A stretch of 40,844 nucleotides of DNA from Bacteroidales bacterium (GTDB lineage: Bacteria; Bacteroidota; Bacteroidia; Bacteroidales; UBA10428). The stretch covers positions 1 through 40,844 of the forward strand of contig JAFGOR010000113.1 in the NCBI GenBank assembly GCA_016926375.1, in the 5' to 3' direction. The position numbers and the translations under genes were made by a program. Shown one piece after another: positions 29,466 to 34,638 of the stretch (position 1 is the first letter of the stretch; every line of letters begins with the position of its first letter). Under the pieces are notes generated by a model, which did no database searches, had not been told where the DNA came from, and was given only the letters and a program-made list of their open reading frames with translations.

Positions 29466-29912
29466 TTAATTTCTCACTTCAACAATCAATTTGGCAGTTT
29501 GCAGATTGAATTTTGCATCGTTGAATGTTGGTGGAACAAACCTGTTTTGCCCCTGGAGGTAAAATCCATAGGTTTCTTTAGGCATGCCCAGGAAATTCGT
29601 ATTCAGCTTGTCATCGTTGTTTTCATCATGAAAGAACTTAATGGCATATTGTCCGTAAGGCACATCCTTAACTACCCACATTGTTTTGCAGTTTTTTATG
29701 ACCAGAGATGCACCCGCATACTTTTTTTCCTGGTTATTCCAACTTGCCTCGGAACTAAAAAGGCCAATTTTGATAGTTCCTTTATCGCTTTTCAGGCCTG
29801 AGATAACCACGGTTATTTCACCGGTAAGATTGCCTGCAGGCTTGCCGGAATGATGGTAATCGACAGAACCGAATAGGATTAACATGCATGAAGCCACAAT
29901 TTCTTTGATCAT
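29466..29912 (-). CDS. DUF2141 secreted protein
   Basis: 148 residues with an N-terminal hydrophobic signal (EIVASCMLILFGS). The mature part matches DUF2141: LTGEITVVISGLKSDKGTIK, GLFSSEASW, VPYGQYAIKFFHDENNDDKL and NTNFLGMPKETYGF. The DENNDDKLNTN stretch is calcium-loop-like. These are small periplasmic or outer-membrane-associated proteins of unknown function. It lies 46 bases after the permease gene on the same strand and may be cotranscribed from the sigma-54-type promoter. Confidence 0.82.
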   Translation of the reverse strand: MIKEIVASCMLILFGSVDYHHSGKPAGNLTGEITVVISGLKSDKGTIKIGLFSSEASWNNQEKKYAGASLVIKNCKTMWVVKDVPYGQYAIKFFHDENNDDKLNTNFLGMPKETYGFYLQGQNRFVPPTFNDAKFNLQTAKLIVEVRN

Positions 29913-29958: not shown

Positions 29959-32283
29959 TTATTCGTACCGAAGAGAATTTACGGGATCTTCAACAGCAGC
30001 TTTCCATACCTGCCAGCTTACTGTAGCTAACAGCATAGTCAGCATGAGTATACCACCCAGTACAAAAAATAAAACTCCGGGCTCAATGCGGTGTGGAAAA
30101 ACAGACAAATATGCCCTGCTGCCATACCAGGATAACGGAGAAGCAATAGCCGCAGCAATGAAAGTCTGGATGATCAGACCTTTTGATAACTTAAACATAA
30201 TTCCACTGATATTTGCGCCAAATACCTTACGAATTCCAATCTGTTTCCGGAAACGTTGGGCAATAAACAAGGATAATCCGAAAACTCCAATCAACGAATT
30301 GATCAGGGTAAGCAAAAAGAATACGTGCAACATCCTGCCTGCAGTAATATACGACTTGCCCTCCTTGGTATCCATTAATACCTCATTGTGGTACTTTATT
30401 TCAACAGGATAATCAGCATTGAATTTTCGCAATATGTTTATAATATATGTATGAGTAGCCTCTTTTTTATGTGGGTTGATGCGTATTACCAGATATTCGT
30501 TCAGGTAATTGCTGTATGTGATCAGAAAGGGAGTGATTTCCACTATCGGAGGCACAGCCTGGTATGCATCTACCACTCCGATGATGGTATATGCTTTATC
30601 CCTGATCTGCACTGTCTTACCTATTGGATCAGTAAATCCTAACTCATGGGCAGTTTTTTCATTGATTACCACACCATTCTCCTTGTCGGAAGGATGTATA
30701 TCTGAAAAAAATCTTCCCGCCACCATTTTTATGCCAAATACATTCAGGTAATCAGGATCGAAGTTGAACCAGGTGGCGAATGTGGTATTGTTTTTTTCCT
30801 TCCAGTCAAGAGTGAGATTGTATCCCATACTGGGGATTGTTGACCCCCATGAAACATCCAGAACATCAGGATTCTTCTTGAGCTCATCCTTAACTTTTCT
30901 TAAATCACCCCACGGGTAACCGTTAACACAAATTACATTACTGCCGTCATACCGGGTAATATCACGACTATACATGTACGTAGCCTGTTTATCCATAACC
31001 ATGATTAATTGTATGAAAACAATACTTAAGAATAACTGCAGTGTGGTAAGGATATTTCGTGAACTCAGGCCGGAATGTTGTGCTGAATTGCTATTCTTCA
31101 TCAGCGAGATGGGTTTTGCTGAGGAAAATTTCAAAGCCGGATAAAATCCTGAAATTACGGTAACCACAATAAATAAGAGTAAGCCGGCAATCAAAAAATG
31201 CTGGTCGGCAGTAATATGTAGGTTTGTGTTCATGCTGGCATTGAACCTGGGAAGTGTGAGTTTGAGCAGAACAACGGCCAGGTTAAAACTGATCAGTGTT
31301 GTCAGGAAGGTGTCGGTTAAAAGTTGCAGAAATACATGGATCTTGTTTGCTCCGTTTACCTTCCTGACTCCTGTTTCACGAATTCTTGATGAGAACAATA
31401 TGTTGATGAAGTTAATGTAGTTCAGACAGGAGATCAGCAGTACAAATAAACCACCGAAAAGAAAGACTTGTAATTTACCTTTGGTATTCTCATAAGTTCC
31501 TTTGAAATGAATCTCTTTAAGCGGGAGGAGATAGGCAGAGATATTTTCAATAGGTGAGGGGATTTTATAGGAACGTCGGATTTTCTCATTCAGGTCTTTC
31601 AGATCAGCTCCTGATTTCAGCAATACATAAGTACTGTATGATGTTGACTGATATTCCTGGTATTTCCAATAACCAAAACGCGATGAAAACCTCATGGGAA
31701 TAATGAATTCAGTTATTATCTGTGTATTGGAAGGAAGATCATCAAAGACACCGGTAACTGTAAAATCGACCTGTTCTCCGTTGCAGTTGATCCGAAGATT
31801 TTTACCCAAGGGCACTTCCCTGCCAAAGTATCTTATTGCGGCTTGCTCCGAAATGACAATACTCTGGGGATCATTGTCTTGGTGCCCCATTTTGAACGGA
31901 ATGGTAAATATCTGAAAGAACATGGAGTCGGCAAATGTGATATCATCTTCAATAAATAGATTCTCGCCTGCTCTTACTGTAGTTGCGTAGTTCCGGGTTA
32001 TTGTATAGGATTCAATTTCAGGGAACATATCCTGCAAAGCCTCTCCTTCGGGGCCGAAAGTAGACGGAATAAAATCAATGTCACCGAATTTGCCACTCAG
32101 ATAAATAGCGGAAATCCTGTCGGACTTTTCATGACATTCCTCGTAGGTAAGCTCATGCAATGCAAAAGCTATGGCTATAACCGCTGATGCCAATCCGAGC
32201 GTGAGTCCAAGTATGTTGATAAATGAGATCCACCTGTTTTTCAACAAGTATCTCCAGGCAGTGATCAGGTAATGTATGAACAT
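29959..32283 (-). CDS. MacB/FtsX-type ABC transporter permease without ATPase
   Basis: 774 residues. Opens with MFIHYLITAWRYLLKNRWIS and helix FINILGLTLGLASAVIAIAF, the typical start of Bacteroidota MacB_PCD permeases. A periplasmic domain (about 45-270) precedes FtsX helices (FLFGGLFVLLISCLNYINFI, then RIRETGVRKVNGANKIHVFL). A second MacB_PCD plus FtsX unit ends VSWQVWKAAVEDPVNSLRYE, with RKQIGIRKVFGANISGIMFK. No ATP-binding subunit or MacA-like adaptor is in the window, so it must pair with a distant ATPase or act alone. Such permeases often transduce signals or export lipids and peptides. It is divergent from the sigma-54 regulator. Confidence 0.88.
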   Translation of the reverse strand: MFIHYLITAWRYLLKNRWISFINILGLTLGLASAVIAIAFALHELTYEECHEKSDRISAIYLSGKFGDIDFIPSTFGPEGEALQDMFPEIESYTITRNYATTVRAGENLFIEDDITFADSMFFQIFTIPFKMGHQDNDPQSIVISEQAAIRYFGREVPLGKNLRINCNGEQVDFTVTGVFDDLPSNTQIITEFIIPMRFSSRFGYWKYQEYQSTSYSTYVLLKSGADLKDLNEKIRRSYKIPSPIENISAYLLPLKEIHFKGTYENTKGKLQVFLFGGLFVLLISCLNYINFINILFSSRIRETGVRKVNGANKIHVFLQLLTDTFLTTLISFNLAVVLLKLTLPRFNASMNTNLHITADQHFLIAGLLLFIVVTVISGFYPALKFSSAKPISLMKNSNSAQHSGLSSRNILTTLQLFLSIVFIQLIMVMDKQATYMYSRDITRYDGSNVICVNGYPWGDLRKVKDELKKNPDVLDVSWGSTIPSMGYNLTLDWKEKNNTTFATWFNFDPDYLNVFGIKMVAGRFFSDIHPSDKENGVVINEKTAHELGFTDPIGKTVQIRDKAYTIIGVVDAYQAVPPIVEITPFLITYSNYLNEYLVIRINPHKKEATHTYIINILRKFNADYPVEIKYHNEVLMDTKEGKSYITAGRMLHVFFLLTLINSLIGVFGLSLFIAQRFRKQIGIRKVFGANISGIMFKLSKGLIIQTFIAAAIASPLSWYGSRAYLSVFPHRIEPGVLFFVLGGILMLTMLLATVSWQVWKAAVEDPVNSLRYE

Positions 32284-32315
32284 ATCAGTTGCTTAAAAAT
32301 TTTCATCAGGATTGT

Positions 32316-32331
32316 TTCAATTCGTATGCCA
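32316..32331 (-). promoter_or_regulatory. Sigma-54-like (-24/-12) promoter of the permease gene
   Basis: Minus strand TGGCATACGAATTGAA fits TGGCAYR-N4-TTGCW except that the -12 GC is GA. The spacing from GG to the -12 G is 10 bases, as required. The start site would lie near 32306, about 22 bases before the permease ATG. The only sigma-54 activator in the window is encoded divergently next to it. Confidence 0.5.
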
Positions 32332-32394
32332 AAATTGATATGTATCAGATATACAACAAGAAAAAGTCTTAAATGATCTTTATTATTCAAAATA

Positions 32395-32433
32395 TGTTCC
32401 ATTATGGAACACATGGTGTTCTATGTTGGAACA
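32395..32433. promoter_or_regulatory. Paired palindromic operators, candidate enhancer for the NtrC-type regulator
   Basis: Site 1 (32395-32411) is TGTTCCATTATGGAACA, a perfect 8-bp-arm palindrome with one central base. Site 2 (32417-32433) is TGTTCTATGTTGGAACA, with two mismatched pairs. Their starts are 22 bases apart, two helical turns, and the centres lie about 97 and 119 bases upstream of the predicted sigma-54 start. GAACAC and GTGTTC in between also pair. This is the classic upstream-activator layout. Confidence 0.65.
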
Positions 32434-32478: not shown

Positions 32479-33852
32479 ATGTCGAAATCTTCCGGACATA
32501 TTCTGATTATTGATGACAATACAAGCGTATTGAATTCTCTGGTGCTTTACCTGAAATACCAGTTTGAAAAGGTCACTGCTTTGCGCAATCCAAACCTTAT
32601 CCCGGAATCGATTGAAAAAGATCGCCCCGACATTGTGCTGCTTGACATGAATTTTACAGCAGGTATTAACAATGGGAATGAAGGTCTTTTTTGGCTGAAC
32701 CAAATACTAAAGGCTGATCCTGATGCGGTAGTAGTGCTGATTACAGCATATGGGGATGTTGAACTTGCCATCAGGGCAATTAAGGAAGGTGCCACAGACT
32801 TCATTCTGAAACCATGGGATAACAATAAACTGTTGGCCACGTTGCAATCCGCCATGAAATTGCGCCAGACAAGAAAGCAGGTTCAATACCTGAAACTCAG
32901 GGAGACACAGTTAAAAGAGGATATTTGCCGCAGATTTTCGGAAATTATCGGGGAATCACCGGCTATGAAAGATTTGTTGGACAAGGTGCGGAAAGTAGCG
33001 AAAACAGATGCGGGCATTTTGCTTACCGGTGAAAATGGTACAGGAAAGGAGTTGATTGCCAGGGAGATTCATAGGTTATCCAATCGGAATAAACAGGACT
33101 TTGTTTCAGTGGACCTGGGTGCTTTGCCTGAATCGCTTATTGAAAGCGAACTTTTCGGACATGTAAAAGGAGCATATACCGATGCAAGGGAAGATCGGAT
33201 AGGCAGGTTTGAAACAGCCGATGGTGGTACCTTGTTCCTGGATGAGATCGGCAATCTGAATTGCAATATTCAACCCAAATTGCTTACTGCCATTGAACAG
33301 AGAAAGATTACTCCGCTGGGTTCCAATAAAACCCGTAACGTGAATATCAGGATTATTTGTGCAACCAATTCCCATTTAATTGACCTGGTAAAACAGGGAC
33401 TTTTCAGGGAGGACTTGTTTTACAGGATCAATACCATTGAAATTGAAGTTCCTCCTTTGAGGAATCGCGGAAATGACATCATGCTGCTTGCATGGCATTA
33501 CCTGGTTGAATTCTGCGCCAGGTACAACCGCAAAGGGATCAGAATCACTGAAAAATCAATCGAAAAGCTAAAGGATTACTCCTGGCCCGGTAATGTCAGA
33601 GAATTAAGGCATACTATTGAGAAAGCTGTTATTCTTTCCGATTCATTGGAACTGGAGCCACAACATTTCTCCTTTGAAACTGAAAGATTGAGACCAGATG
33701 TGGTTATTCCGGCAATGAATCTTGAAGAGCTTGAAAAAAGAGCAATAGCAATGTCATTAAACAGGTACAACCGGAATATTGCCGAGACGGCCAGGGAACT
33801 TGGTATTGGACGCCAGACACTCTACCGAAAAATCGAAAAATATAAGCTCTGA
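32479..33852 (+). CDS. Sigma-54-dependent response regulator (NtrC family)
   Basis: 457 residues. Receiver domain 1-125 with acidic pair Asp 12/Asp 13, phospho-acceptor Asp 56, Thr 89 and Lys 111. AAA+ domain about 150-385: Walker A GENGTGKE (184-191), loop-1 motif GAYTDA (231-236, in place of GAFTGA), Walker [10 protein letters not shown] (251-259) and a later [20 protein letters not shown]-terminal Fis-type HTH (about 420-457; [20 protein letters not shown]). It would contact sigma-54 RNA polymerase at -24/-12 promoters. All receiver and ATPase residues are intact. The histidine kinase gene follows after 21 bases, and paired palindromes lie upstream. Confidence 0.93.
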
Positions 33853-33873: not shown

Positions 33874-34638
33874 ATGGCTATGGTTTATCAAAAATTTTAT
33901 ACAAATGTCATCATCCGTACAGTATCCATAACCTTTACCGGACTTGTTCTTGCTTATGTGGTTATGAAGCGGGATGACCTGTACGTTGCATTCAACGTAC
34001 TTTTGCTGATCATGGTGCAAACCGTTTTAATGATACAGTATTTAAATCGGATAAATCGTGATCTTGCCCACTTTTTTAATGCCATTTCAAATGATGATTC
34101 CAACGTTGTGTATAGAAAAACGGCTTCGGGAAAGACTTTTCAGGTGCTTCATGAAAGTTTTGATCAGATTAATGCAAGGATCCAGGCACTGAAGATGGAA
34201 AACAGCCGTCGCACATTCTACCTTCAGCATCTTGTGGAGCATGCCGGAATAGGAATTATTTCATATGCAGGCAACGGTAAAATAGACATTTTTAATCCGG
34301 CAGCCAGAAAACTTCTCAATATTTCATCCGGTGTGACAGTCCAGAAAATTAATGAACTTAACAGGATGACTGGATTAGCTCTCGGGGAAATAAGGCCGGG
34401 AGAAAAACGCCTGCTCAAAGCAAACCTGAAAAATGATTCCATTCCTCTTTCAGTAATGGCAAGCGATTTTGTTTTTCGGGGTGAGACGACAAGATTGCTA
34501 ACCTTTCAGGGCATCAAAAGTGAACTGGAGGACAATGAAATGGTATCGTGGCAAAAACTTATCAAAACGCTTACGCATGAAATCGTAAATTCCATAGGTC
34601 CAATATCATCCACCAATAATACAATGAAATCGTTTTAA
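33874..34638 (+). pseudogene. Histidine kinase truncated after the H-box (no ATPase domain)
   Basis: 254 residues. Two membrane helices (about 9-30 and 38-58), a PAS-like region (about 115-210; GIGIISYAGNGKIDIFNPAA) and the dimerisation helix with phospho-acceptor His 235 (WQKLIKTLTHEIVNSIGPIS). The frame ends 19 residues later at TNNTMKSF. Intact members of this family run about 170 residues further, with N, G1 and G2 boxes; none of these can be read in any frame before the LacI gene 125 bases downstream. The 3' end has therefore been lost, or a very short non-catalytic kinase is made. It is the cognate partner of the regulator by position. Confidence 0.75.

Follow-up and report, generated by a model that had tools for sequence, protein, structure and literature searches.

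Background

Sigma-54 promoters that are activated by NtrC together with IHF, such as E. coli glnHp2, have two NtrC dimer sites upstream of -100 and an IHF site before the -24/-12 element. The -24/-12 element is recognized by the pattern TGGCAYR-N4-TTGCW, in which the GG and a G at a spacing of 10-11 nt are invariant, and E. coli NtrC itself has the recognition helix GRNTLTRK and binds sites with the half-site TGCACC. Enhancers of the NtrC type have dyad binding sites about 80-150 bp upstream. Few regulons of NtrC-type regulators have been described in Bacteroidota. In NifA-controlled systems the upstream activator sites are given as TGT-N10-ACA (PMC2820453, PMC7294313). A 2025 study predicted from -24/-12 matrices alone that COG0577/FtsX-like permeases of Bacteroidia are under the control of sigma-54 (PMC12316311), and its main text mentions neither palindromes nor upstream activator sites. 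Studies of synthetic enhancers and of looping at the Vibrio qrr genes described a dependence on the helical repeat, so that natural insertions and deletions are expected in whole turns (PMC4740811).

Organization of the locus and the probable sigma-54 promoter

The window, by which we mean the whole stretch of 40,844 nucleotides that was analysed, comes from a genome of 3.43 Mb in 294 contigs that is 86% complete. The genes of interest are arranged in the order permease (minus strand), a 195-nt intergenic region, NtrC-type response regulator (plus strand), and histidine kinase (plus strand), and the features are as follows.

29466..29912, minus strand: DUF2141 gene downstream of the permease gene, possibly in the same operon
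29959..32283, minus strand: MacB_PCD/FtsX ABC-type permease, 774 aa, the predicted target gene
32316..32331, minus strand: sigma-54 -24/-12 element TGGCATACGAATTGAA, facing the permease gene, predicted start at about 32305-32306
32339..32363, no strand: candidate site for DNA bending by an IHF/HU-type protein; it matches the consensus weakly, at 11 of 17 positions, and its centre is 20 nt upstream of TGG
32395..32411, no strand: predicted promoter-proximal activator site TGTTCCATTATGGAACA, 17 bp, centre at about -98
32417..32433, no strand: predicted promoter-distal activator site TGTTCTATGTTGGAACA, 17 bp, centre at about -120
32479..33852, plus strand: NtrC-type response regulator with receiver, AAA+ sigma-54 activator and Fis HTH domains, predicted binder of the palindromes
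33874..34638, plus strand: sensor histidine kinase, 254 aa, ending after the H-box

The permease gene and the DUF2141 gene possibly form an operon because they are only 46 nt apart. The preliminary description of this region had recognized a gene for an NtrC-type activator next to the sites, and the domains PF00072, PF00158, and PF02954 were all found in its product above their cut-offs. It had not mentioned that the adjoining kinase is short, namely, 254 aa versus 454-458 aa in an orthologue. Full-length kinases are found at four other orthologous loci, and a search for the missing half elsewhere in this 86% complete genome gave no close match. The truncation may be a result of decay or of an assembly fault, and the input side of the system in this genome may thus be broken or impaired.

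An element of the -24/-12 type facing the permease gene had been proposed and it is there on the minus strand at 32316-32331. It has one mismatch from TGGCAYRN4TTGCW (C to A at -12) and its -12 half reads TTGAA rather than TTGC. Matches to the consensus with up to two mismatches occur in the window 25 times versus 26 expected by chance, and at this frequency it is only the conservation of its position that lends the element weight. The position is indeed conserved in the orthologous locus L034, where the element reads TGGCATACACCTTGTT. The figures of 97 and 119 bases given earlier are correct when the palindrome centres are measured from the predicted start and not, as was written, from the -24/-12 element, which is separated from the proximal palindrome by a gap of 63 nt. 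Likewise, the region had been called a divergent sigma-54 control region. The genes are divergent, but a sigma-54 promoter is seen on the permease side only; a promoter of this type toward the regulator gene was considered and rejected since the best scores on that strand equal those of shuffled sequences. The sigma factor itself, whose gene was to be looked for, is encoded in the genome (rpoN on C55, PF04552, E 2.8e-52). A scan of the local region for sigma-70-type promoters and terminators gave matches that were not above chance.

The paired palindromes and their conservation

Both 17-base TGTTC-N7-GAACA sites that had been reported are present, and they are spaced 22 bp from start to start. 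The exact pattern occurs at 7 places in the 3.43-Mb genome compared to 2 for a reversed-pattern control. Four of these 7 places form two pairs, one in the window and one at C253:5995/6017, both spaced exactly 22 bp, and the second pair adjoins the gene of a paralogous regulator. The three remaining copies are single and lie inside reading frames. When up to one mismatch was allowed, the 393 genomes of the order yielded 6 such pairs and 0 for the reversed control; of the four pairs outside the window's genome, three lie beside the gene of a regulator from this family, with a permease gene in divergent orientation. The pattern scan of the window's genome (86% complete) revealed no other paired site with a promoter that would extend the regulon beyond this locus.

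Conservation of the palindromes in relatives had been named as the point to check, and they are conserved: the pairs and the permease-facing -24/-12 element are retained in orthologues and at dozens of paralogous loci. The orthologous loci are L034/L153 (74% identity) and L154, L155, L156, and L157 (61-63% identity). All five have two sites of the form TGTWCC-N5-GNWACA spaced 22 bp apart, although several half-sites have degenerated and the distal one of L034 matches poorly, and at all five a gap of 63-64 nt separates the sites from a -24/-12 element. Their regulators share the recognition helix GRQTLYRK with the regulator of the window. A homologous permease lies beside the regulator at L034 (67%), L155 (59%), and L154 (27%), and no permease match was found in the flanking DNA examined at L156 and L157.

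The same arrangement is seen in the wider family. In the upstream regions of 76 relatives, two like palindromes (score at least 22) are spaced 22 bp apart in 17 regions and 23 bp apart in 3, while no other spacing in the range of 17-39 bp occurs in more than 1 region, and a palindrome length of 17 is likewise preferred. Among 47 regions with a clear pair, 96% have a -24/-12 element scoring at least 15 on the target-facing strand, compared to 11% with one on the opposite strand and 7% in shuffled sequences. A joint test, which asks for paired sites of the TGT-N11-ACA type 22 or 23 bp apart and a sigma-54 element at a fixed distance, was passed by 76 of the 132 relatives with upstream DNA. Of these, 49 combine a spacing of 22 with a long gap, 19 combine a spacing of 23 with a short gap, and 8 are mixed. 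The gap limits in this test were chosen from the first set of relatives and therefore the regulator-blind scan described below is the unbiased measure.

Regulators and half-sites

The sigma-54-contacting loop of the window's regulator is GAYTDA instead of the textbook GAFTGA; the F/Y and the T are kept and the G is changed to D. A GA(F/Y)TDA or GSFTDA loop is found in nearly all family members, whose loci carry sigma-54 promoters, whereas the loops of two further activators encoded in this genome read GAFTSA and GSFTGA. Letters 4-6 of the half-site vary with the recognition helix. They are AAA or CAA with TRQTLYN, AAA with TRPTLY(H/K), WCC with GRQTLYR, T(C/T)C with GRTT(L/M)YR, TCA with SRTTLY(A/S/T), CTA-like with ARQTLYN, and TGG-like with NRSTLY. 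The helix and the half-site of E. coli NtrC fit the row in which GR..R goes with CC. The association is strong when tested against shuffles, but it follows clades, and the regulator tree offers only 1-3 independent contrasts, with which significance is unreachable, and so we treat a helix-to-site code as a lead. Members with an RTSLYRR helix (C39 of the same genome, which is L023, and L171-L199 in relatives) are without a TGT-N11-ACA pair in the scan; recurring GTACGA-like words upstream of them may be a different site.

These data bear on the possibility that the palindromes are bound by a different protein, either another of the six paralogous regulators or an unrelated factor. The paralogue locus on C253 has TGTTCA-type sites, and cross-binding would be possible because these have the TGTTC core in common with the sites of the window; that the local kinase is truncated also speaks for this possibility. 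However, letters 4-6 of the half-site track the helix of the adjacent regulator across clades (GRQTLYR with TGTWCC, SRTTLY(A/T/S) with TGTTCA, and TRQTLYN with TGTAAA or TGTCAA), and we consider binding by a different protein unlikely. The adjacent NtrC-type regulator is the better candidate.

Spacing between the sites and the promoter

The regulator-blind scan used a pattern in which TGCCA is followed, after 46-76 nt, by the outer triplets of a pair of TGT-N11-ACA palindromes spaced 22 bp apart. In the 393 genomes of the order this pattern was found at 57 places in 45 genomes, whereas the reversed control gave about 3. Most of the gaps (50 of 57) are 51-56 or 62-66 nt long, and the modes lie at 54-55 and 64 nt; a binomial test against a uniform distribution gives 4e-16, a value that ignores kinship among the genomes. 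The two gap classes differ by one helical turn, about 11 nt. When the scan was extended to the wider class (395 genomes) 18 places were found over a visible background, several of them with a 52-nt gap and a TGTnCG half-site. Four loci from other orders of the class (L116, L122, L110, and L109) are laid out in the same way, but with half-sites of the form TGTnCG and a gap of 51-52 nt. Where an adjacent regulator was seen at these loci, its helix is TR(T)ALYRR. Seven other loci (L125, L129, L130, L131, L136, L138, and L147) have the complete enhancer layout and no family regulator matched within the 3 kb examined; they are possible trans targets, and at L129 and L130 a permease match is present.

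Aligning the linkers on the promoter revealed an element resembling an IHF site. Neither this conserved element nor the one-turn quantisation of the spacing was part of the preliminary description. Linkers of both gap classes have in common TA-N5-CTGATTATCAG-N5-TA, and the family consensus is YAANNNNYTGATWATCARNNNNTTR, centred 20 nt upstream of the -24 box in the long class and 19 nt in the short class. Each arm agrees with the IHF consensus of E. coli, WATCARNNNNTTR, as quoted in PMC7962754, giving a palindromic doubling. The pattern scan provided 30 further sites that had not contributed to the family consensus, one of which is the window under another locus number. Of these, 20 (67%) score at least 12, all with the centre at 18-20, compared to 16% of shuffled linkers at any position. 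The element in the window is weak, matching the doubled consensus at 11 of 17 positions, yet its best match lies at the expected centre. A palindromic site would fit a homodimer of an HU/IHF-family protein, and one gene of this family is present in the part of the genome that was examined.

It could be argued that the fixed spacing reflects the shared ancestry of one much-copied locus and not a functional constraint, and on the regulator tree the gap class does change only about 3 times and the palindrome spacing 6 times. Against this, the linkers have diverged, and after removal of those more than 70% alike, 45 of 49 and 24 of 24 remain. Linker length nevertheless varies by no more than a few bases apart from shifts of about 11, where unconstrained linkers would drift, and when the palindromes shift, the IHF-like element stays equally far from the promoter. 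Shared ancestry as the sole explanation is therefore very unlikely, and functional constraint on the spacing is the reading we prefer.

Proposed mechanism

Since the parts, their order, and their fixed distances are conserved across relatives, this region is very probably a sigma-54 enhancer-promoter for the permease gene that is worked by the adjacent NtrC-type regulator, as judged from sequence. Thus, the layout of an upstream activator site and a sigma-54 promoter that was proposed earlier is supported by the conserved sites, the position of the promoter, and the presence of rpoN. In the mechanism that we propose, two dimers of the phosphorylated regulator (32479-33852) would occupy the palindromes at about -98 and -120, next to each other on the same helical face. 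An IHF/HU-type protein may then bend the DNA at about -46, a step that is optional, and the AAA+ ring of the regulator would reach RNA polymerase-sigma-54 at the -24/-12 element and open the promoter. The permease gene would thereby be switched on, and probably the DUF2141 gene too. We infer from the sequence that the regulator is the binder, that an IHF/HU protein bends the DNA, that phosphorylation is needed, and that the regulation is in this direction.

The distal palindrome ends 45 nt from the start of the regulator gene, and a regulator bound at this distance from its own start may also control itself. The least probable explanation is that the palindromes are operators through which the regulator mainly represses or tunes a sigma-A-type promoter of its own gene, with a coincidental -24/-12 match. 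Common as this closeness is in relatives, the permease-side sigma-54 element is at a fixed helical distance in nearly all of them, and gaps confined to 51-56 or 62-66 nt would not be expected from a chance match. Auto-control may be an additional role of an enhancer that serves the permease gene.

Beyond this locus, we put forward a more general proposal, which we hold tentatively and at somewhat less than even confidence, that Bacteroidota use a locked sigma-54 enhancer. It would consist of paired TGT-N11-ACA sites 22 or 23 bp apart, a palindromic site for an IHF/HU homodimer in a constant position, and two promoter distances that differ by one turn; it would be worked by regulators with a GA(F/Y)TDA loop, and half-sites set by the recognition helix would insulate parallel transporter circuits from one another. 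The geometry of sites, bend, and promoter is a specific motif with which target promoters can be predicted for dozens of unstudied regulators, and the natural spacing variants of one turn offer a test of enhancer rigidity. If the link between helix and half-site is confirmed, targets would be readable from the protein sequence.

Comparison with known systems

In a mostly open-access literature we found no description in Bacteroidota of paired TGT-N11-ACA sites, of two locked distances, or of a palindromic IHF-like element. The 2025 prediction (PMC12316311) concerns the same class of target genes and the same sigma factor; the activator sites, the spacing, and the bending element are new here. 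NifA sites also have TGT and ACA as outer triplets upstream of a sigma-54 promoter, but here the triplets are separated by N11, the sites are always paired at 22 or 23 bp, and the regulator is a response regulator with a receiver domain. Unlike the looping studies (PMC4740811), our data reveal whole-turn quantisation in natural Bacteroidota enhancers with paired sites. The overall design resembles that of promoters of the E. coli glnHp2 type, which have two sites, an IHF site between these and the promoter (here an IHF-like element that is weak in the window), and a 17-bp inverted repeat with outer TG and CA. The differences are that the half-site here is TGTTCC compared to TGCACC for NtrC, that the IHF-like consensus is palindromic, that the spacing is kept at two narrow values across a Bacteroidota order, and that the target is an ABC-type permease. 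Thus, enhancers built from NtrC, IHF, and sigma-54 are already known, and what is described here is a dimensionally fixed Bacteroidota form of them.
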